Part shown: in pieces, positions 13,028-31,832 of the stretch
Layout: each line of letters starts with the position of its first letter
Numbering within the stretch: the stretch's first letter is position 1
Origin: a virus
Strand: one strand, 5' to 3'
Length of the DNA stretch: 35,558 bases
Virus record (IMG/VR): IMGVR_UViG_3300029448_000075
Coordinates: 11,676-47,233 of that record
Notes under the pieces: generated by a model
Databases searched by the model: none
The model's input: the letters and a program-made list of their open reading frames with translations, nothing else
Told to the model about the DNA's origin: nothing
Program-made: the position numbers and the translations under genes

Positions 13028-13056
13028 TTTACTAAGTAAAGCGAATGAGATATGAT
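13028..13056 (+). promoter_or_regulatory. Promoter of the putative base-modification block
   Basis: TTTACT (13028-13033, in CCCCTTTACT), a 17-nt spacer, and TATGAT (13051-13056). The -10 covers an in-frame ATG at 13052, so the true start of the next gene should be the ATG at 13067. Confidence 0.65.
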
Positions 13057-13066
13057 AAAGGACACC

Positions 13067-13882
13067 ATGAAAGACTTTTTTAAATTCATAAGCGAAAGAC
13101 ACCAGATTTATTTAAACAGGCAGACAGGCATGTCTTTCCCTTGGACAGAAGACGAAATATTACAAACCTATAGTTTTTGTAATGTGTTTAGAGAATTAGA
13201 CACAGTTACTATATGGCTTCGTGAAAACTGGCGAGAACCATATGCCGACCACCCCAACTTACCTTTTGCTATGGCAATGGCGAGACAGATCAACTGGACA
13301 GAGACACTATCAGAGATTGGCTTTCCTGAGGAATGGAACCCAGAGCATGCTAAAAATGTCATGCGAGCCAGACAACTTAAGAAAGAAAAAGTGTATACTG
13401 GTGCATACATGTTAACTGGTACGCTAGGTGGTCCAAAAATAGACCAAACGATAGATAAGATTTTAACACCCTTGTACGAAGACCAACCCGAAATAGACAA
13501 CGATTCACTTGAAAATACTTGGAGAGAGTATTTAAGATATAAGGGTTTCGCAAAGTTTATTTCATACGAGGTTGTCACAGATTTAAGACACACTAAACAT
13601 TTAAATCAAGCAAAAGACATAATGACTTGGGCAAACGCTGGTCCAGGAGCAAAACGAGGATTAAATAGAATTTTTGAAAGGGACATAAAAACTCCATTAA
13701 AAAATGAACAGTCAAACCATGAAATGATGGATTTATTGGACATTTCGGTCGAAATGCTAGAACCCCATGTTCCAGCATTGGAGATGAGAGACATAGAGCA
13801 TTCATTGTGTGAGTTTGATAAATATGAACGAACCAGATTAAACCAAGGGAGACCACGTGCTAAATATCACAGACCTGTTTAA
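13067..13882 (+). CDS. 5-hmdU DNA kinase helical-domain / aGPT-pyrophosphorylase-type protein
   Basis: I recognise the all-helical domain linked to thymine hypermodification (HMUDK helical domain and the alpha-glutamyl/putrescinyl-thymine pyrophosphorylase group). With the start at 13067: ERH (10-12), PWTEDEIL (25-32), FCNVFRELD (37-45), VYTGAYML (109-116) and a hairpin-like GPGAKRGLNR (192-201) appear in the expected order. The family acts on hydroxymethyluracil in phage DNA or on its pyrophosphorylated form. No P-loop kinase domain is present, so this is the helical part alone, and its exact reaction is unknown. The 276-codon form from 13052 is unlikely because that ATG lies in the -10 box. 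AAAGGA precedes 13067. Its end overlaps the cupin gene by 26 nt. Confidence 0.7.
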   Translation: MKDFFKFISERHQIYLNRQTGMSFPWTEDEILQTYSFCNVFRELDTVTIWLRENWREPYADHPNLPFAMAMARQINWTETLSEIGFPEEWNPEHAKNVMRARQLKKEKVYTGAYMLTGTLGGPKIDQTIDKILTPLYEDQPEIDNDSLENTWREYLRYKGFAKFISYEVVTDLRHTKHLNQAKDIMTWANAGPGAKRGLNRIFERDIKTPLKNEQSNHEMMDLLDISVEMLEPHVPALEMRDIEHSLCEFDKYERTRLNQGRPRAKYHRPV

Positions 13883-14189
13883 AACAGTAAAAGAAGACGA
13901 GCGATACCTCGTTGAAGACAACACCGATCTAGAAACATTGGTAGTCAGTAAGACTTGCTTAAAGCCTGAGAAAGAAACCACAGGACACTCACATAGCGGT
14001 CAAGAAGAAGTGTATATATTTACTACAGGGGAGGGCTACCTTGAGTCAAACGACGAGGTCATAAAGGTTAAAGAGGGAGACATTGTTATAATAGACGACG
14101 GTGATTTCCATAGAGTCCATAACCCACACCCTTCTATTAATTTAAGTTTTATATGTATATTTCCAGGAAAACGATATGACCATAAGTGA
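13857..14189 (+). CDS. Single-domain cupin protein
   Basis: A 110-residue beta-barrel protein with both cupin motifs: His44-x-His46-x3-Glu50 in motif 1 (GHSHSGQEEVYIF) and His85-x3-Asn89 in motif 2 (DGDFHRVHN), so the metal site is intact. Small cupins include sugar isomerases/epimerases, dioxygenases and ligand sensors, so the reaction cannot be fixed. The start is GTG at 13857, with AAGGGA at 13845-13850, and it overlaps the previous gene by 26 nt and the next by 14 nt. Its place between a hmdU-pathway protein and a methyltransferase/glycosyltransferase pair suggests it shapes the group added to DNA, possibly a sugar; this is inference. Confidence 0.8.
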   Translation: MLNITDLFKTVKEDERYLVEDNTDLETLVVSKTCLKPEKETTGHSHSGQEEVYIFTTGEGYLESNDEVIKVKEGDIVIIDDGDFHRVHNPHPSINLSFICIFPGKRYDHK

Positions 14190-14886
14190 AAAAGAAGCTT
14201 CAGCAGAAACAGTTTTTGACAAGAAGTCTGGTCTTTGGTATAGACCCGAACTTGGTGAACTCTTTGTTATAGGGGAACAAACTCAGTATAAGTCTTTAGA
14301 TTTTGACAATAAAACTGTAATGGATGTTGGTGCACACATTGGTTGTTTTGCAGACTTAGCGATAAAGTATGGTGCTAAACATGTTTGGTGTTATGAACCA
14401 ACCAGAGAAAGTTTCGAATTATTAGAGAAAAATTTATCCACAAGAATGCAGTGGGCACAACTATACAACTCTGCACTCACAGGAAACAAAGAGGATACTG
14501 TTGATTTTTATTTGTCTAAAAAGTATCCAACATGCCACACTCACATGCCCGTCCGAGGAAGAGAAAAGGTCACAGTGGATGCTATGAATTTTTGGGACAG
14601 AGTAGACCTTCACCAACCAGAAATATTAAAAGTCGATGTAGAAGGTGGGGAATATGATTTTATATTTCAACAAGAAATACCTGATTATGTTGAGCAAATA
14701 GCAATTGAACTGCACCTCGGTAAGAAAGGGTACAGAGATTTAGGAATAAAAACTGCCAAACTATTTAGCGACTGGCATTATCATGCTTCTTTTCGTTTTA
14801 GTTGGCACATCACAACATTAATCCTACATCGGAATAAAAAAGGTAAGGGAACTGTAAAAGAAAGAATAAAGGAACTAGAATTATGA
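14176..14886 (+). CDS. FkbM-type SAM-dependent methyltransferase
   Basis: Class I methyltransferase. Motif I VMDVGAHIGCFA (48-59) binds SAM; the acidic residue ending beta-2 lies in YEPT (73-76); and LKVDVEGGEY (151-160) is the FkbM family signature. FkbM enzymes O-methylate sugars and polyketides, not DNA bases directly. The gene overlaps the cupin by 14 nt and the glycosyltransferase by 4 nt, so it is made with both. I infer it methylates a sugar or similar moiety handled by the neighbouring glycosyltransferase. A target on phage glycan or host surface glycan is the main alternative. Confidence 0.85.
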   Translation: MTISEKEASAETVFDKKSGLWYRPELGELFVIGEQTQYKSLDFDNKTVMDVGAHIGCFADLAIKYGAKHVWCYEPTRESFELLEKNLSTRMQWAQLYNSALTGNKEDTVDFYLSKKYPTCHTHMPVRGREKVTVDAMNFWDRVDLHQPEILKVDVEGGEYDFIFQQEIPDYVEQIAIELHLGKKGYRDLGIKTAKLFSDWHYHASFRFSWHITTLILHRNKKGKGTVKERIKELEL

Positions 14887-16220
14887 AAATATTAATAACA
14901 TTGTACGACATCAACAATCCTGGAGGGATTGTTAACCACATAGAAAACTTAATCTCAGGGTTCATTGAACTTGGTCATGAAGTTAATTTTGTGCAGCTTC
15001 TTTGGAAGGATAAGGTCAAAGGCAGAACAACAAAGTTCCCAGAGAGGTTTACTAAAAACCAGCTAGGAATGTTGTACCATCAGAAAGCTGGTTGGATTTT
15101 CCCCTCTGATAAAAGGTTTGCGTATAAGGGGCAATATAACATAAACAAATGGAAACAGTTTGCTGAAGGGTATGACCTTATTATATGGGAAGTGCCTGTA
15201 CCAACTAAACAACAACAGAACAGAGGAAACTTAGATTGGCTTGAGGTGTATAACCTGTCGCCGAGTGTTAAACAAATCGGTATAGTTCATGATGGAAATT
15301 TAAGAAAAAGTTATCCTTGGATTCAAAATGTAAAAGAATACTTCAATGGGTTGGCTTGTGTGCATCCCTGTGCTTATCATGGTGCAGATGTTATAGAAAT
15401 ACCAAGGGCGCTCATACTTAACCCACAAGACCTTAGGGATGTTAAACCTGCAAATGGTTTATTTTGGGATGCTCGCAAAAGAGGATTTCTCTCCTTACAA
15501 ACATTCAAAGGTTGGAAACATGTTGATGATTTAATTCGTGCAATTCCCCATATGGATCGAAACATTGAAAAGTACGTTGCTGGTGGTGGTATTGAATATC
15601 GGTACATGACTTCGAAAGAAAAGTGTAAAGAAAAGTATTTCGTTTCAAGGGAGCTCGACCCAGATATCTCGGAACAACACATGGGGAAAAAGATTTGGGA
15701 TGTTGCACTGGAAAAAGGTATGGAATGGTTAGGGTATATACACCCAGAAGAAGTCGACCAAAGGATGAAAACACTGCGTTGTGTTATCGATCCTTCTTGG
15801 TCTAAAAATTATGCTAAAATTGGCGACCACTTCAACAGAGTTGTGGTTGATGGAATAATGAGGGGACTAATCCCTATTGCTAGGAATTTAGGTATTTCCA
15901 CAAACCTTGAGGGAGAGGGTGAAGTTTTCACACCTAATAAAAACTATGTCATGGTTCCATTTGATGCGAAACCAAAAGAGTTTGGTGAAATTGTTGAAAA
16001 CACCATCAATTTATCGTCCTATCAGGCAACGGAGTATTACGAAAATAATTTGGAGTTACTTCCATTGTTTGAGAGGAAAAAAATAGCGCAAGAATATATA
16101 GACTTAGGGAATGGTCTTCCTACAGGATTCTATAACAAACTAGAAACAGGAACTGTAGACCCTAAGACCACAGCAAAAGCAGAAAAAGTCATTAATGAAT
16201 TTTTCGGAGAAGAAGCATGA
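14883..16220 (+). CDS. GT-B fold glycosyltransferase (GT4-like)
   Basis: A 445-residue two-domain glycosyltransferase. The N-terminal Rossmann domain starts MKILITLYDINNPGG with the Gly-Gly loop at 14-15 that contacts the acceptor or phosphate. The C-terminal domain has GWKHVDDLIRAI (210-221), VAGGG (232-236), WLGYIHPEEV (282-291) and VVDGIMRGLIPIARNLG (321-337), which corresponds to the donor-binding E-x7-E region of GT4 enzymes, although the canonical Glu pair is altered here. The gene overlaps its neighbours by 4 nt on both sides. Phage GT-B enzymes can glucosylate hydroxymethylated bases, which fits the neighbours, but glycosylation of another acceptor cannot be excluded. Confidence 0.8.
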   Translation: MKILITLYDINNPGGIVNHIENLISGFIELGHEVNFVQLLWKDKVKGRTTKFPERFTKNQLGMLYHQKAGWIFPSDKRFAYKGQYNINKWKQFAEGYDLIIWEVPVPTKQQQNRGNLDWLEVYNLSPSVKQIGIVHDGNLRKSYPWIQNVKEYFNGLACVHPCAYHGADVIEIPRALILNPQDLRDVKPANGLFWDARKRGFLSLQTFKGWKHVDDLIRAIPHMDRNIEKYVAGGGIEYRYMTSKEKCKEKYFVSRELDPDISEQHMGKKIWDVALEKGMEWLGYIHPEEVDQRMKTLRCVIDPSWSKNYAKIGDHFNRVVVDGIMRGLIPIARNLGISTNLEGEGEVFTPNKNYVMVPFDAKPKEFGEIVENTINLSSYQATEYYENNLELLPLFERKKIAQEYIDLGNGLPTGFYNKLETGTVDPKTTAKAEKVINEFFGEEA

Positions 16221-16669
16221 TTCTTCCTGTTGAAATGGTTATATTAAATCCAGATGTGGAAAAATATGGACTGCCTAAATGGGCAACAACAGGTTCTGCA
16301 GGAATGGATTTAAGAGCGCTCAAGGACGCTGAACTTTATCCAGGAGACCAAGAAGAGTTTTCTTTGGGGTTTTCTATTAGCCTACCTTTTGGCTCTTTTG
16401 GATTGCTTGCCCCTCGATCAAGCCTAGGAATACAGCGAATTCATTTGAGTAATTTAGTTGGGATTATTGATTCAGACTACCAAGGAGAACTCGTGGTGAA
16501 CCTCACTAACAACTCTAGACATCCCGAACCCTTTAAAATTAAGGCTGGGGATCGCATAGCGCAATTAGTTGTATTGCCTTTTTGCCATGCAGATTGGGAT
16601 ATAGTTACAAAGTTCAGCAATGAAAGCGATCGAGGTGATGGTGGTTTTGGGAGCACTGGTGTAGATTAA
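16217..16669 (+). CDS. dut: dUTP diphosphatase (dUTPase)
   Basis: Hydrolyses dUTP to dUMP, keeping uracil out of DNA and supplying the substrate of thymidylate synthase-type enzymes. All five trimeric dUTPase motifs are complete: AGMDLRA (28-34), APRSSLG (65-71), GIIDSDYQGEL (82-92), GDRIAQLVV (111-119) and RGDGGFGSTG (139-148). The 150-residue length is normal. It overlaps the glycosyltransferase by 4 nt (ATGA) and is followed by the TS-like gene, so the dUMP producer and user are adjacent. Confidence 0.97.
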   Translation: MILPVEMVILNPDVEKYGLPKWATTGSAGMDLRALKDAELYPGDQEEFSLGFSISLPFGSFGLLAPRSSLGIQRIHLSNLVGIIDSDYQGELVVNLTNNSRHPEPFKIKAGDRIAQLVVLPFCHADWDIVTKFSNESDRGDGGFGSTGVD

Positions 16670-16683
16670 TTAAGGAGAAAACA

Positions 16684-17739
16684 ATGCAAGTAATTAGAGT
16701 AAGAAATGTAAACGATGCCCTTATATTGGGCACACAGTTGCTTAGAGATGGTGGAGTTTGGCGAGAGAGTCGTGCAGGAAGGGTTATTGAGTACCCTGAG
16801 CCTGTCACAACTGTTTATGAAAAGCCATACGAAAGGTTGCTATTTTCTCCTGCCAGGGATGCAAATCCGTTTTTTCATTTCATGGAAGCGTTGTGGATGC
16901 TAGATGGAAGAAACGATGTTAAAAGTATCAGCTATTATGTGAAAAGAATGGAAACTTTCAGCGACGATGGTGAGACACTTCATGGTGCATATGGTTATCG
17001 TTGGAGAAATTACTTTGTTCAAGATCAAATATTAAATGTTATAAATAGATTAAAAACTTCTCCAGAGGACAGAAGGGTTGTTTTAGGAATGTGGGATCCT
17101 GCGGGAGATTTTTATATGGGTGAATCAGACGCTAGGGATGTCCCTTGTAATACTCATATTTATTTTAAAATCAGAGATAAAAACCTGCACATGACTGTGT
17201 GTTGTCGCAGTAATGATATGATTTGGGGTGCTTATGGAGCAAATGCAGTTCACATGTCTATGCTTCAAGAATTTATTGCATACTCCGTTGGTGTGGGAAT
17301 CGGAAGGTACACTCAAATCAGCGATAGTTTCCACGCATACGAAGATGTGTATACAAAAGTAGAGCAAGAACAACCTGATATAGATGTTTTCAACAGTTCT
17401 TCTCTTATACTTGGTGGTCGATATAACACCCAATCTGTCAGTTCTGATGGTCCAGGCATGATTCAAGAGTTCACTGACCACGAGCAATGGTTAGAAATAT
17501 TGAATGGGTTTCTGGCTGATGCATTCATAAGAAACGAAGAACACAAAGAAGAACACTACACTGCAGACTATGACGACCCTTATTTTGATTTAGTTGCCGA
17601 ACCCATAGCAAAGGCATACTGGGAACATAAGAATGGGCACACAAGAAAAGCTATAGAAACAGTCAGTATGTGTGTTGCTTCTGATTGGAGATTTGCTTGT
17701 AAGGAATGGTTGGAACGGAGGTTGTTGAGTGATAACTAG
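16684..17739 (+). CDS. Thymidylate synthase family: TS or dUMP hydroxymethylase
   Basis: A ThyA-superfamily enzyme acting on dUMP with methylene-tetrahydrofolate. The catalytic Cys is Cys155 in VPCNTH; the phosphate-binding pair is Arg130-Arg131; RSNDMIWGAYGANAV (175-189) replaces the usual RSxDxxLGxPFN loop with one added residue but keeps Asn187, expected for uracil rather than cytosine specificity; His217 and Tyr219 (SFHAYED) match the sugar-binding HxY. The length of 351 exceeds classic ThyA, with a C-terminal extension rich in acidic residues. Divergent TS homologues in hmdU phages make 5-hydroxymethyl-dUMP. Its neighbours favour that activity, but sequence alone cannot separate it from dTMP synthesis. 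It starts at ATG 16684 after AAGGAG. Confidence 0.85.
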   Translation: MQVIRVRNVNDALILGTQLLRDGGVWRESRAGRVIEYPEPVTTVYEKPYERLLFSPARDANPFFHFMEALWMLDGRNDVKSISYYVKRMETFSDDGETLHGAYGYRWRNYFVQDQILNVINRLKTSPEDRRVVLGMWDPAGDFYMGESDARDVPCNTHIYFKIRDKNLHMTVCCRSNDMIWGAYGANAVHMSMLQEFIAYSVGVGIGRYTQISDSFHAYEDVYTKVEQEQPDIDVFNSSSLILGGRYNTQSVSSDGPGMIQEFTDHEQWLEILNGFLADAFIRNEEHKEEHYTADYDDPYFDLVAEPIAKAYWEHKNGHTRKAIETVSMCVASDWRFACKEWLERRLLSDN

Positions 17740-18758: not shown

Positions 18759-20657
18759 ATGCAACAGACACCCATGTTTCAAAGCGAATCTGATTGGGCA
18801 CCGCCCTCTTTACTCCCCGATCTCACAGACGAAAAAGAAATAGCTGTTGATCTTGAGACCAGAGACCCTAATTTAATGAAAAGAGGACCAGGATGGGCTA
18901 CTGGGGATGGAGAAGTCGTGGGCATAGCCGTAGCAACCAAGGGTTGGTCGGGATATCTACCTATAAAACATGAAGCTGGGGGAAACCTTGATAGGTCTTT
19001 TGTTTTGGCTTGGCTAAAAACTCAGTTGCAGGGAACTGGTGATAAAATTTTTCATAATTCTTTGTACGATGTTGGTTGGTTAAAACGAGAGGGAATAGAG
19101 CTGAATGGCAAAATACAAGACACTATGATTTCTGCCCCACTCATAAATGAAAATCGAAATCGATACTCCTTAGACTCACTTGGTGCTGAGTATTGTGGTG
19201 AAAGAAAGGATGAAACTCTACTCAAACAAGCAGCACAGGAGTGGGGGATCAATCCTAAAGCAGAGATGTGGAAGTTGCCCTCCAAGTATGTTGGACCCTA
19301 TGCCGAGCAAGATGCTGTATTGACATTGAAACTATGGCAAGAAATGAAAAAAGAGATAGTAAAACAGAACCTCACTCAAATCTACGAATTAGAAAGCGGT
19401 ATTTTACCACTTCTTATACAAATGAGGTGGAATGGAATGTTGATCGACTCTTCCAAGGCAGAACAAACTGCAGAAGAGCTTAAGAGTAAAGAGATGCAAC
19501 TGCTTAAAGAGATCAATAGAAAATTTGGCGGTCGGGTAGAGCTATGGGCTTCTGCGTCTATTGCAAAGGTGTTTGATAAAAACGGACTGACCTACCCTAG
19601 AACCCCTAGAACCAACACTGCAAGTTTTACGGCAGAGTGGTTAGAAAGACACACACACGAGCTCCCTCAAATGATTGTCAAAGCAAGAAAAATAAATAAG
19701 GCAAGAACCACATTCATTGAAAAGATGATTTTTGAACATCTCCATAAAGGCAAAATACATGCTCAAATAAACCCACTCAGGTCAGACAACGGTGGGACTG
19801 TGAGCGGTCGTTTTAGTTACAGCAGTCCTAATTTACAGCAGGTTCCAGCAAGAGACCCCGAAATTGGTTCATTAATCAGAGGATTATTTATACCAGACGG
19901 TCATGATTATTGGGGTGCTTTTGACTATAGCCAACAAGAACCTAGATTAACAGTGCATTATTCTGCCCTAACAAGACAAACTGGTGCAGACAGAGCAGTG
20001 GAGCAGTATCAGAACGAAGATGCAGACTTCCACCAGATTGTAGCAGATATGGCAGGCATTGATCGAAAGAAGGCTAAGATGATCAATTTAGGGCTTAGTT
20101 ATGGAATGGGTAAAAAGAAACTCACCGATGCTCTTGGTCTTTCTGAATTTGAAGCAGAGGAATTATTTTCTAAATACCATTCTAGAGTTCCTTTCATTAG
20201 AGGTCTTTCTAATGCTTGTTCTAGGAGAGCATCTAATAAAGGATATATAACAACACTTCTTGGAAGAAAATGTAGATTTAATTTGTATGAACCCAGAAAT
20301 GAAAGAAGCGTTCCTTTGCCTTACGACCAAGCAATTGAGAAATGGTCAGGGAAGCAATTAGAAAGGGCATACACATATAAAGCACTTAACAGGCTTATAC
20401 AGGGTTCAGCATCGGACATGACTAAAAAAGCGATGCTAGACTTATGGAAAGAAGGTTATGTTCCCTATGTTCAAGTTCACGATGAATTGGATTTAGGAGT
20501 ATCAACAAAGAAAGAGATAGAGCGAATCAAAGAAATAATGGAACAATGTGTCAAGATACAAGTCCCAAATCTGGTCGATGCAGAAATAGGAAAAACTTGG
20601 GGATCCGCAACTAAATCTTATTTGGAGGTATTCAGTGAAAGGAATAGACAGGGATAA
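18759..20657 (+). CDS. polA: DNA polymerase I (family A) with 3'-5' exonuclease
   Basis: Replicative phage polymerase. The proofreading domain is complete: Asp31/Glu33 (VDLET), Asn100/Asp104 (FHNSLYDVG) and Tyr181/Asp185 (YAEQD). The polymerase domain has motif A DYSQQEPRL (389-397, catalytic Asp389), motif B with Arg436, Lys440, Leu444 and Tyr448-Gly449, and motif C VHDEL (573-577, His574, Asp575, Glu576). There is no 5'-nuclease domain, and 632 residues is normal for a phage PolA. Leu444 corresponds to position 762 of E. coli Pol I, the Leu variant. It overlaps the HTH gene by 23 nt. Confidence 0.97.
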   Translation: MQQTPMFQSESDWAPPSLLPDLTDEKEIAVDLETRDPNLMKRGPGWATGDGEVVGIAVATKGWSGYLPIKHEAGGNLDRSFVLAWLKTQLQGTGDKIFHNSLYDVGWLKREGIELNGKIQDTMISAPLINENRNRYSLDSLGAEYCGERKDETLLKQAAQEWGINPKAEMWKLPSKYVGPYAEQDAVLTLKLWQEMKKEIVKQNLTQIYELESGILPLLIQMRWNGMLIDSSKAEQTAEELKSKEMQLLKEINRKFGGRVELWASASIAKVFDKNGLTYPRTPRTNTASFTAEWLERHTHELPQMIVKARKINKARTTFIEKMIFEHLHKGKIHAQINPLRSDNGGTVSGRFSYSSPNLQQVPARDPEIGSLIRGLFIPDGHDYWGAFDYSQQEPRLTVHYSALTRQTGADRAVEQYQNEDADFHQIVADMAGIDRKKAKMINLGLSYGMGKKKLTDALGLSEFEAEELFSKYHSRVPFIRGLSNACSRRASNKGYITTLLGRKCRFNLYEPRNERSVPLPYDQAIEKWSGKQLERAYTYKALNRLIQGSASDMTKKAMLDLWKEGYVPYVQVHDELDLGVSTKKEIERIKEIMEQCVKIQVPNLVDAEIGKTWGSATKSYLEVFSERNRQG

Positions 20658-20955
20658 AGCAACTTTTTATTTAGAAAGAAATCAATCGATCTATAGGGAG
20701 TATGTAGAGACGAAACAAACAATGGAGCAACTTGCTGAACGGTACAACATCACAAAACAAAGAGTTTGGCAAATCATTAGAAGATGCACTTTAGGAGAGG
20801 GGGACTATTACAAAGGGTTTGAAAACTTTAAACATAAAGAAGAGTCTTTAAAAGAATTGGGAATACAGGGTGGTCGAAGACACGAATTACTAAGAAAATG
20901 GATGTCTGAAAACTACGAAATAAAAACCATTCCTCTTCAAAATGAGGGAGAATAG
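20635..20955 (+). CDS. Small helix-turn-helix DNA-binding protein (106 aa)
   Basis: Residues about 23-46 (TMEQLAERYNITKQRVWQII) form a helix-turn-helix like sigma-70 region 4 or a small response-regulator HTH. No other domain is seen; the rest is charged and helical. It may regulate transcription or load proteins onto DNA. It starts with GTG at 20635 after TTGGAGG, inside the end of the polymerase gene, and overlaps the nuclease gene by 14 nt. The role is inferred from the motif only. Confidence 0.65.
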   Translation: MKGIDRDKATFYLERNQSIYREYVETKQTMEQLAERYNITKQRVWQIIRRCTLGEGDYYKGFENFKHKEESLKELGIQGGRRHELLRKWMSENYEIKTIPLQNEGE

Positions 20956-21340: not shown

Positions 21341-21728
21341 TTTTGACATCATCCATATGGGGTATATCCATATGTTTAATGATTGTAAAAACTATTGTGA
21401 CAAATTGCTTGTTTTACTGCACGAAGACCCATCAATCGAAAGACCACATAAATTAAAACCCATACACACAGTAGAAGAAAGAAAAATGCTTTTATACTCT
21501 TTACGACAAGTTGACGGTATACTTTGTTATAGACTGGAAAAAGACCTTTTAGAATTATTGAAAAAAGTAGAGATCCATGTTCGCTTCCTTGGAACGGATT
21601 ACATAGATAAATCATTTACAGGGGACGACCTTGATATCCCTATCCAGTATATAGATCGGTCTCATGGTTGGAGCACTACAAAATACAAAACTTTAATTTC
21701 TGAGTCCTTTACTTTCTCTGAAAAATAG
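21315..21728 (+). CDS. Cytidylyltransferase-like nucleotidyltransferase
   Basis: Transfers a nucleotide onto a phosphorylated small molecule. GNFDIIHMGYIHMF (8-21) is the HxGH-type motif, with Tyr17 at the second-His position and a further His19; FLGTDYID (91-98) and RSHGWSTTK (115-123) match the later substrate and STT motifs of glycerol-3-phosphate or sugar cytidylyltransferases. Length of 137 is typical. Being the last gene of the block, it could make an activated donor (for example a CDP- or nucleotide-linked polyol or sugar) for the glycosyltransferase. That link is inference; the substrate cannot be read from sequence. Confidence 0.75.
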   Translation: MKIGIIAGNFDIIHMGYIHMFNDCKNYCDKLLVLLHEDPSIERPHKLKPIHTVEERKMLLYSLRQVDGILCYRLEKDLLELLKKVEIHVRFLGTDYIDKSFTGDDLDIPIQYIDRSHGWSTTKYKTLISESFTFSEK

Positions 21729-26482: not shown

Positions 26483-26737
26483 ATGACACAAGTAAATATC
26501 ACTGTAGTCAAAACCTACATAGACCCGTATACAGCGGAACTGTTCGCCAACTATACCAAAGCTAACTACGACCGAATCGCTGATGACATCAGCTATTCAG
26601 ATGAGCAATGCTTTGAGGCTTTAATAGAGGACGCTGAAAACTTCATTGAGATTGTGACTAGCGATTTCACTGGACTCAGCATTAACCATACTGCGGAGGA
26701 GTATGCTAAAAACTTCAGCCTGGACACGCAACAATAA
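26483..26737 (+). CDS. Hypothetical small acidic protein (84 aa)
   Basis: An acidic protein with a Thr/Val-rich beginning and a long helical acidic stretch. No domain is recognised. AAGGAG precedes the ATG. It is a single-gene unit with its own promoter, leader hairpin and terminator, so it is probably made in quantity early; the role is unknown. Confidence 0.6.
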   Translation: MTQVNITVVKTYIDPYTAELFANYTKANYDRIADDISYSDEQCFEALIEDAENFIEIVTSDFTGLSINHTAEEYAKNFSLDTQQ

Positions 26738-26760
26738 GCGCATAAGTCTTCTGGGCCAAT

Positions 26761-26795
26761 AAAAGACCCCTTTTTAAATAAAGGGGTCTTTTTTA
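26761..26795 (+). terminator. Rho-independent terminator
   Basis: AAAAGACCCCTTT (26761-26773) pairs with AAAGGGGTCTTTT (26780-26792), with a short loop and T run. Confidence 0.92.
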
Positions 26796-26814
26796 GTTAT
26801 TTAAGTGCATTTTA

Positions 26815-26873
26815 CCCACTCCAGATCGTCTGTGGAGCGTTTTCTTAAGAGGGCAAAGGGCTTAGTATACCCA
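26815..26873 (+). repeat. 59-bp intergenic element, copy A
   Basis: Same length as the copy at 30391-30449. The first 14 nt (CCCACTCCAGATCG) and the last 24 nt (AGGGC then AAAGGGCTTAGTATACCCA) are identical, while the middle differs. Copy A can form CTCCA...TGGAG (26819-26836); both can form GGG-9 nt-CCC at the 3' end (26858-26872). It lies between a terminator and the 26914 promoter. Confidence 0.8.
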
Positions 26874-26913
26874 AAAATACCTCCACATGCATGTTTGAAT
26901 AGGGATGTACTCC

Positions 26914-26943
26914 TTTACTTTACATTTGCTTTTAGCCTATAAT
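26914..26943 (+). promoter_or_regulatory. Promoter, phage consensus type
   Basis: TTTACT (26914-26919, in CTCCTTTACTTTAC), an 18-nt spacer, and TATAAT (26938-26943). Confidence 0.75.
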
Positions 26944-26979
26944 GACTGTGTTGTTAAATTATAAAGAAAGGAGAAAGTT

Positions 26980-27816
26980 ATGCAACAGTTAGAATTAAAT
27001 CAACCAAAGAGCCACGACTTAGAGTTTCATATTTCAAGGTACTTGAAAAATGCAGAACTCGCACGTCGTCGTATGTCGACTCGGCATAAACTTGTAGAAG
27101 AATTTCGCAACTACGAGGAAAATGGTCACACACTAGAAGGAGCGATCAGCTACATCAAAGGCGGTGCTAATTATCTTCAAAAAGAAAGACAAGCACTGTT
27201 GATTGACGAAGTTAGATACGACAGTCCCCTTCGTAAAAAAATCCGATCCTACTGGATAGCGAAAGGGATCGCCGATAGTTTTATCGACCAACACGACTCA
27301 GGCAGAACATTGTCAGAAAAACAACTTAATTGTTTATGTACAATGATTGACGAGGCTCGTGGGAAAAACTCAAAAACTCCGAGCGTTGGTACTTTACCAA
27401 ACATTGTTGGAGTCTACGAGGTATTCAACAGAAACACTGCTTTGAAATATCCTAAAATCTGGCTTAAATTACCAGACGGCACGGATATTAAGATTAGTCG
27501 TCTTGGCAGTCTTTCTAAATATGAAGGTCAACTTTCTATGGCGAATGGAACTTATGGTGACGGCATGTATTTTGGTCGCATCACTAAAGAAGGTGACATT
27601 CACTTACTGAAAGACGGCATTGATCGCAAGGACGAAATACTGACCTTGCTCAATGAATTAGCAGACAACCCAGAAGAAGTTGCTACGAAATATGGTCGCT
27701 TAACTGGTAATTGTTGTTTCTGTGTTCGTCAGTTATCAGACGAAAGAAGTTTAGAAGTGGGATATGGGGAAACCTGTGCTTCTCACTATAATCTTCCATG
27801 GGGTGAAAGTGTTTGA
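26980..27816 (+). CDS. DUF6011-like zinc-ribbon protein (278 aa)
   Basis: An N-terminal helical region of about 150 residues, a middle beta-rich part, and a C-terminal zinc module like DUF6011: Cys245, Cys246, Cys248 (NCCFCVRQLSD) and Cys266 (GYGETCASHY), followed by NLPWG. The same module ends many phage early proteins. AAAGGAG precedes the ATG. It is the first gene of a four-gene cassette. Role unknown; nucleic-acid or protein binding is likely. Confidence 0.7.
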   Translation: MQQLELNQPKSHDLEFHISRYLKNAELARRRMSTRHKLVEEFRNYEENGHTLEGAISYIKGGANYLQKERQALLIDEVRYDSPLRKKIRSYWIAKGIADSFIDQHDSGRTLSEKQLNCLCTMIDEARGKNSKTPSVGTLPNIVGVYEVFNRNTALKYPKIWLKLPDGTDIKISRLGSLSKYEGQLSMANGTYGDGMYFGRITKEGDIHLLKDGIDRKDEILTLLNELADNPEEVATKYGRLTGNCCFCVRQLSDERSLEVGYGETCASHYNLPWGESV

Positions 27817-27825
27817 ATACACTTT
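27806..27825 (+). other. Small stem at the end of the 26980 gene
   Basis: AAAGTGT (27806-27812) and ACACTTT (27819-27825) pair around the stop codon. There is no T run, so it is not a clear terminator; the 90-nt leader to the next gene also holds two copies of GTCGGC. Confidence 0.3.
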
Positions 27826-27906
27826 AATCCGTTTCATCGGTCGGCTGTGTGTTTACGCAGTCGGCTTCTTGTTTATCTTATTCATGTTTATATAAGGAGA
27901 ATTATT

Positions 27907-28509
27907 ATGAATGATAAAGAATACCCAACGTATATTGTCCAGTACGAGTATGGGTTTGTAATTAAATTTGTTGACTACATCAACAAACTGGACTCGAACA
28001 ACAGGATCACTTCTGTTGCCGAATGGCGTTTTCAAATCTGGTGTGACAATGCTCTGTTTTTTGACAGCTTCACATACACACGTGAAGATGAGCGAACCAT
28101 TTTCACATACACTAGTGAAGATTTTATTGATGCTGAAAAAGGAAATTTTTTGCTGTCCTATCAACATGAACTGCAAATCGATAATCTGGTTTCAGAAGCA
28201 CTCGCCGACGAAACATATGATCTTGGTGCGAAAACACACGACATCGATGGTTTTGCTCTTCACTATCCTGAAGGTGTGAACGAAAACCCATATGACATTA
28301 CACACTACGATAATAAGCATAGCCCCACTCTGTATTGGGATGCTTCCTGCGAGTCGTGCAGTGGTTATGGAAAGATAGATACTGATCGTGGTGGTACATA
28401 TGCTTGCATGTGTGTCGGAACCATGAAATTAGCCGATCAAAACAGGTCTATAAAAATCAATGAAGACGGTGGGATGTACCTTTCCAAAGAAGTAGAGGTG
28501 ACATCATGA
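27907..28509 (+). CDS. Hypothetical protein with CxxC motifs (200 aa)
   Basis: Strand-rich acidic protein. Near the C-terminus CESCSGYGK and CMCVG resemble a DnaJ-type zinc knuckle with two Cys pairs. The start is placed at ATG 27907 because AAGGAG stands just before it, and the reading from 27847 has none. It overlaps the next gene by 4 nt. Function unknown. Confidence 0.65.
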   Translation: MNDKEYPTYIVQYEYGFVIKFVDYINKLDSNNRITSVAEWRFQIWCDNALFFDSFTYTREDERTIFTYTSEDFIDAEKGNFLLSYQHELQIDNLVSEALADETYDLGAKTHDIDGFALHYPEGVNENPYDITHYDNKHSPTLYWDASCESCSGYGKIDTDRGGTYACMCVGTMKLADQNRSIKINEDGGMYLSKEVEVTS

Positions 28510-28919
28510 CTGATTTAAATAAATCCATCATAGAGAAAGGTTTCGTACAATGGCTCAAGGACAAATACGAAAGACAAGCATACCATGGTGTCGCCTACAA
28601 CGACAACGATGCTGGGATCGTGGATCTTGGGGTTCATTACGAAGAATGGGACGAAGTACCTTGGGAAATTCGCAGTGAAATCGACGATCGCATAGAGGAT
28701 CTTCCTTTGGTTGATCTAGCCTTGATTTATGGCAATGAACTAAGGAAAGAATGTGACTATTGGAAAGAGCATTCCGTGCACAAGGAACTGTTTGGTCGGA
28801 AAGAAGAAGACAAGGGTGAATTGTTTAACAACATCATTCGCTGGGCATACGTCGAAGTTGCTATGGAATATCTAGACGAACTAGAAGAAGGCATTAAATT
28901 GCAAAGGAGGTTTCGATAA
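28506..28919 (+). CDS. Hypothetical acidic protein (137 aa)
   Basis: Rich in Glu, Asp and aromatic residues, predominantly helical, without recognised motif. GAGGTG precedes the ATG, which overlaps the previous stop. Its end overlaps the next start (TAATG). Function unknown. Confidence 0.6.
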   Translation: MTDLNKSIIEKGFVQWLKDKYERQAYHGVAYNDNDAGIVDLGVHYEEWDEVPWEIRSEIDDRIEDLPLVDLALIYGNELRKECDYWKEHSVHKELFGRKEEDKGELFNNIIRWAYVEVAMEYLDELEEGIKLQRRFR

Positions 28920-29092
28920 TGAATAGTCTATATGTTTTGATACTCTTCATGAGTGTCCTCGGAGCGATTGGTACATGGTCTGCTTTCTTAACATTGCCTA
29001 ATCATAACTTCTTTCTTAAAGTGGTTTCGATGTTCTTGTTTGTTCTTTGTTTAATGGTCAGTTGGGGATGCTTGTTATTACTCCTTTCATAA
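28919..29092 (+). CDS. Small two-helix membrane protein (57 aa)
   Basis: Two hydrophobic segments (about residues 4-25 and 31-56) with a short polar loop (PNHN) mark an integral membrane protein of about 57 residues. GGAGG and a TAATG overlap with the upstream gene support it. It could be a holin-like or host-membrane-acting protein, but it lies in the early cassette rather than beside lysis genes, so its function is open. Confidence 0.65.
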   Translation: MNSLYVLILFMSVLGAIGTWSAFLTLPNHNFFLKVVSMFLFVLCLMVSWGCLLLLLS

Positions 29093-29110
29093 TCCCCCAA
29101 CCCATTAAGA

Positions 29111-29139
29111 AATGCCCCTTGAAAAAGGGGCATTTTTTT
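29111..29139 (+). terminator. Rho-independent terminator
   Basis: AATGCCCCTT (29111-29120), a GAAA loop and AAGGGGCATT (29125-29134), with a T run. It closes the 26914-29092 cassette. Confidence 0.95.
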
Positions 29140-29190
29140 ATGCCCAATGCACATGGACATCTTACGTGCGCAATTTAAGGTATTAAGTCC

Positions 29191-29220
29191 TTTACTTTAA
29201 AACGCATTTAGAACTATAAT
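29191..29220 (+). promoter_or_regulatory. Promoter, phage consensus type
   Basis: TTTACT (29191-29196, in GTCCTTTACTTT), an 18-nt spacer, and TATAAT (29215-29220). The -10 overlaps an ATG at 29219, excluding that start. Confidence 0.75.
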
Positions 29221-29248
29221 GAACTGGTTGTTAAGAAAGGAGAAAGAA

Positions 29249-30082
29249 ATGAAAGACACACAAAGATCAAAATGCTACCGCTGGGAAAATAAACTCCGTG
29301 GGGCAAATATGGTTGAAAACGTGGTAATCTACCTTGTTCGTTACCTAGACTGGAAGGTTAGAAATATGCCTGCTAAAAACAGGGGTGCTGGCTACAACAG
29401 AAAATTCGTCGCATCAAACGGCACGGAACGATATTTTCAAAACCGTGTTTGTTTTGTTAAAAATAACAAATCAGCCCACAGCTGGAGCCAAGGAATGATC
29501 GACGGCAAGGCAATCGTTAATATGATGTTGCCCACTTCTTGGGCACTTCAATATGCGGTCGTGTTGCACGAGTTTGCCCACAGCATTGAACCTTACGATA
29601 GCCATGGTCCTAATTGGATGTCTACCTTTTGTATCTTGCTTAATCGGTTTCACCCCGACCATCCTTCTTTAGAAAGTTTGGCTAGATCGCTTGACGCATC
29701 AGGTATTAAATATGTGCCCTTCAAGGACAATCCCTGGTATCGTGGATTTTGTCGCGTTAAGTTTAATGCGGATAAGGCACCTGCGTTCACTAAATTGATC
29801 GCCAAGGCTTGGGCGGACGGCAAGGAAATGTACGGTAAAAAGCACAACGCCACTAACTGGAAATTGCGTGTAATGAACTTAATCAAAAGGCACAATCTTG
29901 ACATGGTTGATCAGGTCGGCTTTGATAATAGGTGGAACGACGGAATGTTAGAAGGTCAGTTCACCGTCTATTTTGAAAACGGTGAATCTGTGTATTTTTA
30001 TGCGGATGGCGAAGAAACCCCTGACGAAAAACAGGCTTTCTGGAAAGACGTTTACGAAGAATTAAATATCAATTATAAATAA
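29249..30082 (+). CDS. SprT-like zinc metalloprotein (277 aa)
   Basis: Carries HEFAH (107-111) and, eight residues later, HGPNW (119-123), the HExxH...HGxxW arrangement of SprT-like zincins, with Glu108 as catalytic base. SprT-family proteases include Spartan, which cuts DNA-protein crosslinks; phage copies have no agreed role. The C-terminal part is unlike the family core and may be specific. The start at 29249 is set by AAGGAG; the earlier ATG lies in the -10 box. It is followed by a small gene and a terminator. Confidence 0.75.
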   Translation: MKDTQRSKCYRWENKLRGANMVENVVIYLVRYLDWKVRNMPAKNRGAGYNRKFVASNGTERYFQNRVCFVKNNKSAHSWSQGMIDGKAIVNMMLPTSWALQYAVVLHEFAHSIEPYDSHGPNWMSTFCILLNRFHPDHPSLESLARSLDASGIKYVPFKDNPWYRGFCRVKFNADKAPAFTKLIAKAWADGKEMYGKKHNATNWKLRVMNLIKRHNLDMVDQVGFDNRWNDGMLEGQFTVYFENGESVYFYADGEETPDEKQAFWKDVYEELNINYK

Positions 30083-30091
30083 GGAAAAATT

Positions 30092-30319
30092 ATGAATAAA
30101 ATAATAATCAAAAATATAAAGCAAATCTATAACGCTGGTAACCGTGGGGACGATCTATGGTTTGGTAGTACATACTCGTTGATGGACAACACCAACTACT
30201 ATATTCTGCTGAATCATAAGTCAAACACATTTGACACTTATGGTAGCCTAGAGGATGCTATTAAAGACATCCCTGAAGAACTGGTTCAAGAATTGGTTGA
30301 CTGGTATAACGAAAATTAA
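30092..30319 (+). CDS. Hypothetical small protein (75 aa)
   Basis: Short soluble protein with a beta-type first half and an acidic helical end (PEELVQELVDWYNEN). TAAGGAAAA precedes the ATG. It lies 9 nt after the SprT-like gene and is its cassette partner. Function unknown. Confidence 0.55.
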   Translation: MNKIIIKNIKQIYNAGNRGDDLWFGSTYSLMDNTNYYILLNHKSNTFDTYGSLEDAIKDIPEELVQELVDWYNEN

Positions 30320-30336
30320 ATAACCCCATCCCCCAT

Positions 30337-30370
30337 AAAGACCCGTATTTGAATAATACGGGTCTTTTTT
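30337..30370 (+). terminator. Rho-independent terminator
   Basis: AAAGACCCGTATT (30337-30349) pairs with AATACGGGTCTTT (30355-30367), with a T run after. Confidence 0.93.
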
Positions 30371-30390
30371 CGTTGTTATCCCTAAAAATG

Positions 30391-30449
30391 CCCACTCCAG
30401 ATCGCCTGTAAATGGCGTTTGGCATAGGGCAAAGGGCTTAGTATACCCA
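30391..30449 (+). repeat. 59-bp intergenic element, copy B
   Basis: Counterpart of 26815-26873 with identical ends and a different middle; here the middle can form CGCC...GGCG (30404-30417) instead of CTCCA...TGGAG. The 3' GGG-9 nt-CCC is conserved (30434-30448). It follows a terminator, as does copy A. Confidence 0.8.
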
Positions 30450-30801
30450 TATTATCTAAGTAAAGGTGTATAATCTCCTTTACTCGTGTTGTAAAGGGGT
30501 TGCCGTTGTACCCTGTACTCCTTTATTTCGCTCTGCAGATGGTTTCGCTCAATAAGTGGGGTTATGTATACCCCTGTGTTATTAAGGGTTATTGTCGCTA
30601 TTAGTATGACTGGAAAAGAATGATGGTTCACTTTGTTAGAAAATGCATGTTTCAGCCAATAAGGGAATATCTTTTTCATGAAAGGTAGGTGTTGCTTAAT
30701 GTGTGGATTATTGCCCATGGTTATTGGTTGGGTATTGGTTGAAGTTGGGTAATAAATGAGTAACGAAAGGGTAATGATGACGAGAAGAATGTAAATGGTG
30801 T

Positions 30802-31022
30802 ATGGTGCTTGTAAGGTATATTCTGTGTAGTTGTTATATGGTTATTTGTACATGGTGCTTGTACTTGGTAAAAGGGACTCGGCACTCGCGATCTTTTTAC
30901 AGCCCACGCACCACGCACCACGATCATGAAAGTAAATGAGAAAGGGAATCGTCCTTGCTTCATTCACCAAGCACCTTGCACCAATCACAGCTGGCACCAA
31001 GCACCACTCACCAAGCACCATG
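30802..31022. repeat. Inverted and direct repeats around GGTGCTTG / CAAGCACC
   Basis: ATGGTGCTTG occurs at 30802-30811 and 30852-30861. The complement CAAGCACCAT lies at 31013-31022, and CACCAAGCACC is repeated at 30965-30975, 30995-31005 and 31009-31019. This could act as an origin, a protein-binding cluster or a large hairpin. Confidence 0.6.
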
Positions 31023-31174
31023 GCGAAGGGTGCAAAGACCAAGGTCATTGTACCTTAATTTTAGGCTCTGGGATCGCTCCCCCCTCCCCCTTTATGGAGA
31101 CGATGTGATAGCTTTGTCCTTGGCTAAGTTTTTGAGGCACATTCACGAAATTTCTTGCAGCAAGTTTTTTTGAC

Positions 31175-31204
31175 TTTACTCCTTGGTTAAAAAACAGTTA
31201 TCAT
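31175..31204 (+). promoter_or_regulatory. Probable promoter, weaker match
   Basis: TTTACT (31175-31180, in GACTTTACTCC), an 18-nt spacer, and TATCAT (31199-31204). It would start transcription of the lysis/terminase block. Confidence 0.5.
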
Positions 31205-31231
31205 TGGAGAAAATTTTTCGGAGAAAAAATT

Positions 31232-31390
31232 ATGGCAATCGGACTAACGAATTGGTTCAAAAAGACTTTTCTCAGCTATGAGGAAGAAACTGTTCGCAAC
31301 CGCACAAAGAAAGGAAGGTTCGTGGCAGACGATCCTAAGACTAAGGACATCAACGAAGCATACACCAAGACTTATAGAAAAAAGAAGTAA
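31232..31390 (+). CDS. Small basic phage protein (52 aa)
   Basis: Basic, soluble protein carrying KKGRFVADDPKTKDINEAYT, a short conserved pattern seen in many phages near packaging genes; no function known to me. TCGGAG at 31219-31224 precedes the ATG. Its stop is followed at once by the GTG of the holin-like gene. Confidence 0.65.
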   Translation: MAIGLTNWFKKTFLSYEEETVRNRTKKGRFVADDPKTKDINEAYTKTYRKKK

Positions 31391-31391
31391 T

Positions 31392-31832
31392 GTGGGCTTC
31401 CCATTTGAGATAATAACCATGCTCGGTTCTACCCTTTTGAGTAGTTTGTTAAGCATATGGTCGCAAAGTCGTAAAGCCAAGGCGGAAGAACAGAAACTTT
31501 TGATCACAAGAGGCGAGTTTGAAATGAAAGCGAAGAAACAGTCGCTGGACCATGGCTTAAAAGACAAGGGTTTCGCTTGGACAAGGCGGATTATAGCCCT
31601 AACTGCTATATTTGCCATCGTTTTACTGCCAAAACTAGTCGCAGTCTTCTATCCACAGGTCGATGTAACAGTAGGGTACACCAATTGGATGCCTGGATTC
31701 TGGTTTTTTAAAGAAGGAAGGGAAGTTTTTGAGTGGGTGACGTTTCAAGGGCTTGTTATTACGCAATTAGACACGAATTTAGTGTCTGCAATCATTGGAA
31801 TGTACTTTGGAGGAAGTTTAGTAAAAAGATGA
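31392..31832 (+). CDS. Holin-like membrane protein (146 aa)
   Basis: A GTG start at 31392 gives VGFPFEIITMLGSTLLSSLLSIW, then a charged linker and two hydrophobic stretches (IIALTAIFAIVLLPKLVAVFY and the Trp/Phe-rich segment to GLVITQLDTNLVSAIIGMYFGG). The design matches three-helix holin-like proteins of phages and gene-transfer agents. ATG 31419 is an alternative start. Its end overlaps the next gene by 4 nt, whose product resembles a transglycosylase, supporting a lysis pair. Confidence 0.6.
   Translation: MGFPFEIITMLGSTLLSSLLSIWSQSRKAKAEEQKLLITRGEFEMKAKKQSLDHGLKDKGFAWTRRIIALTAIFAIVLLPKLVAVFYPQVDVTVGYTNWMPGFWFFKEGREVFEWVTFQGLVITQLDTNLVSAIIGMYFGGSLVKR

Follow-up and report, generated by a model that had tools for sequence, protein, structure and literature searches.

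The locus raises the question of why a phage genome keeps two copies of a 59-bp intergenic element with constant ends and a variable middle, and whether the element is kept as a structured RNA, as a DNA site bound by a protein, or otherwise. The window analysed (35,558 nt) is part of a 47,233-base IMG/VR virus record from a marine phage, whose nearest named relatives, according to the large terminase subunit (54–62% identity) and DNA polymerase (47–51%), are phage 023Pt_psg01, Pelagibacter phages HTVC027P and HTVC023P, and Phage DSL-LC04. The region 13052–17739 encodes a 5-hmdU DNA kinase helical domain (13052), an FkbM methyltransferase (14176), a glycosyltransferase-like protein (14883), a dUTPase (16217) and a thymidylate synthase (16684); the kinase, FkbM, glycosyltransferase-like and thymidylate synthase genes are likely thymidine hypermodification genes.

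A duplicated unit of terminator and 59-bp element

The features referred to below are as follows.

26761–26792, plus strand: intrinsic terminator upstream of copy 1 (13-pair stem-loop and T-run), within the self-BLAST match
26815–26873, plus strand: copy 1 of the 59-bp element (14-nt block 26815–26828, spacer 26829–26849, 24-nt block 26850–26873)
26912–26943, plus strand: promoter of the 26980 operon (CCTTTACT box, -35 TTTACT at 26914, TATAAT ending at 26943), outside the repeat
26980–30319, plus strand: accessory gene block between the copies, with genes at 26980 (DUF6011 protein), 27907, 28506, 28919, 29219 and 30092
30337–30367, plus strand: intrinsic terminator upstream of copy 2 (13-pair stem-loop and T-run), within the self-BLAST match
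30391–30449, plus strand: copy 2 of the 59-bp element (14-nt block 30391–30404, spacer 30405–30425, 24-nt block 30426–30449)
30457–31220, plus strand: conserved non-coding region starting right after copy 2 and holding a CCTTTACT hairpin at 30478, a neighbour outside the repeat

The two copies with their identical 14-nt and 24-nt ends, as given in the preliminary description, are confirmed and lie far beyond chance. Compared without gaps, the copies are alike at 47 of 59 positions, with unbroken runs of 14 at the 5' end and 24 at the 3' end. With up to three mismatches allowed, the 24-mer is found exactly twice in the window (0.00 expected), and its 23-nt core occurs twice in the whole 47,233-bp record. 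If the 12 mismatches are placed at random between the copies, the probability of a longest run of at least 24 is 0.010 and that of the two longest runs summing to at least 38 is 0.0004, which shows the mismatches to be clustered in the middle. Most of this middle can nevertheless be aligned by gapped BLAST (82% over 61 columns), and the copies are equal in length because small indels in it cancel out; the alignment reads as a spacer that diverged while keeping its length, not as one segment replaced by another. The 5' block has no strict edge, as the relative L007 carries a G one base upstream of copy 1, as does copy 2, while the 24-nt block contains only an imperfect dyad, GGGnnTAnTAnnCCC, read by eye.

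The duplicated unit, as delimited by sequence comparison, is larger than previously described, and consists of a predicted intrinsic terminator, 20 nt following its T-run and the 59-bp element, in register at both copies. Self-BLAST matches 26762–26873 with 30337–30449 (74.8% over 115 columns, E 7e-12). The terminator stems are unlike in sequence (ACCCCTTT/AAAGGGGT versus ACCCGTATT/AATACGGGT), and pairing is intact in both. Between the copies the 20-nt spacer is alike at 7 of 20 positions and the 60 nt downstream at only 15 of 60, both at or near background, whereas the end blocks are 100% identical. From these two values the duplication seems old enough for sequence free of constraint to have drifted, and the 38 end positions of the element did not drift. 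Terminators with short flanks are duplicated in the cousin contig L019 as well. In L002, the inner 15 nt of the terminator hairpin of copy 2 are exactly inverted (GTATTTGAATAATAC versus GTATTATTCAAATAC), a pattern that strand switching at a hairpin would produce.

Occurrence in a single phage lineage

Only two IMG/VR contigs contain the exact 24-mer. Both copies are unchanged in each of them, and the two belong to one species-level lineage (98–99.6% identical). The element (up to 6 mismatches, and profile search) is absent from the other terminase relatives fetched, which included several at 87–90% TerL identity with 5–10 kb of upstream sequence, and from 78 contigs with a related DUF932 gene (profile search and 24-mer). 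No real match was found in annotated phages by megablast or distant BLAST, nor an exact 21-mer match in GTDB genomes. At the junction orthologous to copy 2, the cousins L027, L030, L031 and L035 run from other sequence straight into a conserved TAAGTAAA without the unit; L037 starts 19 nt upstream of TAAGTAAA, and those bases are unlike the element. The element is thus confined to one species-level phage lineage. A lack of copies in relatives had been named in advance as what would refute the preliminary reading; that lack is found beyond the species, whereas within the species two contigs carry both copies.

Three weaker matches were rejected. The 18-mer AAAGGGCTTAGTATACCC has one further place in IMG/VR (L092), apparently intergenic and with no other similarity, which was judged to be chance; CCCACTCCAGATCGNCTGT in L093 and L094 is a short word within unrelated, apparently coding sequence; and the gapped pattern CTCCAGATN{22,50}TTAGTATACC returned 34 further stretches, none of them like the element.

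Within the species, copy 1 has 0/59 substitutions relative to L007, and the next 102 nt have 12/102 (Fisher P 0.004, an approximate value, as some of the 12 differences stem from a re-aligned promoter spacer). At copy 2 no such contrast is readable, since the element and the sequence around it hardly differ between the window and L007. Selection on the constant ends is supported by the contrast at copy 1, together with that between the identical ends and the near-random spacer and downstream sequence. The 59-bp element is a real and probably functional feature, but a small and lineage-specific one.

Neighbouring promoters and the conserved non-coding region

Both copies had been thought to precede one shared downstream CCTTTACT element, which proved to be two different things. 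At copy 1, the promoter that drives the 26980 operon, a member of a phage promoter class, has the CCTTTACT at 26912 as its -35 region. At copy 2, the CCTTTACT at 30478 is one arm of a hairpin with GTAAAGGGG, at the edge of the conserved non-coding region, and has no -10, and the arms are kept in L027, L030, L031, L035 and L037. The plus strand of the record holds the word CTTTACTTT 8 times, where shuffles give 0.16; copies of CCTTTACTT lie 15–18 nt ahead of a TATAAT-like hexamer, and this box is enriched in the cousin contigs L027, L031, L034 and L035 too.

The promoter class with a CCTTTACTT(T) box at -35 is represented in the window at 21706, 22460, 23121, 23449, 25258, 26409, 26912 and 29189, and is common to cousin phages (L027, L034, L035). 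The boxes sometimes stand in tandem, about one helical turn apart (CCTTTACTTTCCACTTTACTTT), an arrangement that suggests a putative activator. A small HTH protein (20635–20955) matches the Mor transcription activator family (PF08765, E 3.5e-7); no other gene resembling a transcription activator was found. The protein is a candidate regulator of the promoters of the phage.

The non-coding region 30457–31220 shares 60–65% identity with the cousins L027, L030, L031, L035 and L037, and its core (30620–30780) is present also in L018, L024 and L055–L060. It contains CCAATA/TATTGG repeats in both orientations, lies upstream of the terminase genes, and looks like a replication origin or packaging region. 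Cousins (L030:6560–7290, L035, L027, L031) have AAGAACAAGAAC/TTCTTCTTGTTCTT repeat arrays near the conserved region, and the window has CACCAAGCACC/GGTGCTTG repeats at a comparable place (about 30800–31030). Beyond the region, the ORFs 31232–31390 and 31278–31832 overlap and are read in different frames; the protein encoded from 31278 has 95% identity in L030–L036, while neighbouring proteins are only about 55–65% identical, and the DNA at the start of the 31232 frame is nearly identical in L030 too.

A proposed bipartite DNA site and its alternatives

Each of two neighbouring gene blocks has the unit at its 3' boundary. As sequence is kept rather than structure, the position is behind a terminator and the length is preserved, a bipartite double-stranded DNA site is favoured: with a probability of about 0.42, the element is a lineage-specific, terminator-linked site at accessory-block boundaries, which is conserved for its sequence and to which a protein probably binds. 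The preliminary description had offered structure or a protein site as the object of selection, and the latter is plausible. The 59 bp would be recognized by a sequence-specific, probably phage-encoded protein, with the 14-nt and 24-nt blocks as contacts held 21 bp (two helical turns) apart, so that the length of the spacer would matter more than its sequence. With a terminator before the site and the next control region after it (the promoter at copy 1 and the origin-like region at copy 2), the bound protein may mark, or control, where the following block begins. The Mor-like HTH protein would be a candidate binder only.

Such a site is consistent with conserved blocks in diverged surroundings (between the copies and, for copy 1, within the species), with the clustered mismatches, with a total length kept despite indels, with the lack of a fold common to the copies, with a plus-strand position at which little transcript is expected, and with the presence of the Mor-type gene. 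Against it, there are only two distinct sequences, in few relatives that are too close to show long-term constraint; the downstream contexts differ, being a promoter and a non-coding region, respectively; the dyad of the 24-nt block is imperfect; and the sequence at 30558 that could be a third core (edit distance 2, with 0.2 expected) was discounted for not being kept in cousins. The element resembles phage operators or regulator binding sites in general in being short, sequence-conserved, intergenic and beside control regions, and differs from them in having only two copies, an unusual bipartite 59-bp span and a binder that is putative rather than known. No pair of CtrA sites is common to the copies.

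The main rival, in itself unlikely, is a boundary repeat or linker that provides homology at block edges for exchange by homologous recombination and gene conversion, with no need of a bound protein. In T4-like phages, promoter early stem-loops (PeSLs) are described, in PMC4503421 citing Arbiol 2010 and Comeau 2014, as terminator stem-loop units at gene-block boundaries in a plastic region, and as boundary repeats serving block exchange. The present unit is likewise intergenic, with a terminator stem-loop in both copies (26761–26792 and 30337–30367) at a block boundary, and a promoter follows copy 1. However, this promoter is outside the conserved sequence and there is none at copy 2, only two copies are present in 47,233 bp rather than a high density in a shuffled region, and the repeat carries an extra 59-bp segment; because of the promoter and the copy number, the unit falls outside the definition of a PeSL. 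Exchange at block edges would fit the direct repeats on either side of an accessory block that was found in this lineage alone. In IMG/VR, proteins related to those of 26980 and 29219 (the latter with a HEFAH zinc-protease-like motif) come from the same lineage only, and none of the block's genes had a match in the cousins, which plug in other genes at this junction. It would also fit the abrupt divergence between the window and L007 just upstream of the copy 1 terminator, where the alignment breaks off at 26508 and is taken up again at 26733, and the duplicated terminators of L019. Gene conversion, however, should keep the spacer and the middle similar, and instead two separate blocks are kept; moreover, no genome was found with one copy and no block.

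A minus-strand small RNA gene is quite unlikely. It would use TATACT (5/6), which sits in the constant 24-nt block, as a -10, and run leftward through the element to a bidirectional terminator, giving an RNA of about 100 nt. The in-register terminator belongs to the repeat, and the hairpin at copy 1 scores as a minus-strand terminator too, yet no -35 is common to the copies, the promoter scan gave no minus-strand promoter able to start such an RNA, minus-strand folding is ordinary relative to dinucleotide shuffles (z -0.89 for copy 1 and -1.19 for copy 2), and no Rfam family matches.

That the unit is a neutral leftover of an old duplication, its conserved runs being due to chance, has only a slim probability: occurrence in one lineage agrees with it, whereas the clustering of mismatches (P 0.0004) and the fall of identity to background outside the blocks do not.

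A structured plus-strand RNA, whose constant ends would close the variable stems, is very unlikely. In copy 2 the constant 5' block pairs with the variable block somewhat above shuffles (P 0.02), but in copy 1 this pairing is unremarkable (P 0.40); plus-strand folding is no better than that of dinucleotide shuffles (z +0.47 and -1.02 for copies 1 and 2), the predicted stems occupy different positions in the two copies, and no promoter separates the element from the terminator that precedes it. Neither a stable fold nor covariation common to the copies was found, two distinct sequences giving little power for covariation, and Rfam gave nothing at the gathering score in the whole window and nothing credible in 26700–31300 at E up to 5. 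Nothing thus favours an RNA, and selection for structure is not supported.

Two other candidates were rejected. TAGTAT inside the element is a possible -10 of a promoter, yet no -35 is common to the copies. A coding remnant, read by eye in a minus-strand frame with GYTKPFAL and DLEW common to the copies, lacks a start and, in copy 2, runs into a stop two codons upstream, and the 24-nt block shows no silent changes.

That the two direct repeats are recombination sites, one at the 3' end of each gene block, at which a putative phage or host recombinase would insert and remove accessory cassettes in an integron-like manner without attC, is scarcely credible. Integron attC sites ('59-base elements') share with the element the length of about 59 bp, conserved ends, a variable middle and a place at the 3' end of gene blocks, but no exact match to the core sites RYYYAAC/GTTRRRY is present in or beside the copies, words with one mismatch are not at the ends in both, and in place of an imperfect palindrome between core sites there are plain hairpins, differing by copy and no better than shuffles. 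The element is neither an RNA family nor an attC site nor a complete PeSL.

The cis-acting signals of such phages are hardly described, promoters and intergenic motifs being unmentioned in the genome paper and the transcriptome paper covered by a word search. The repeat is otherwise one more lineage-specific phage intergenic repeat, and the conserved non-coding region next to copy 2 is arguably more interesting than the 59-bp element itself.
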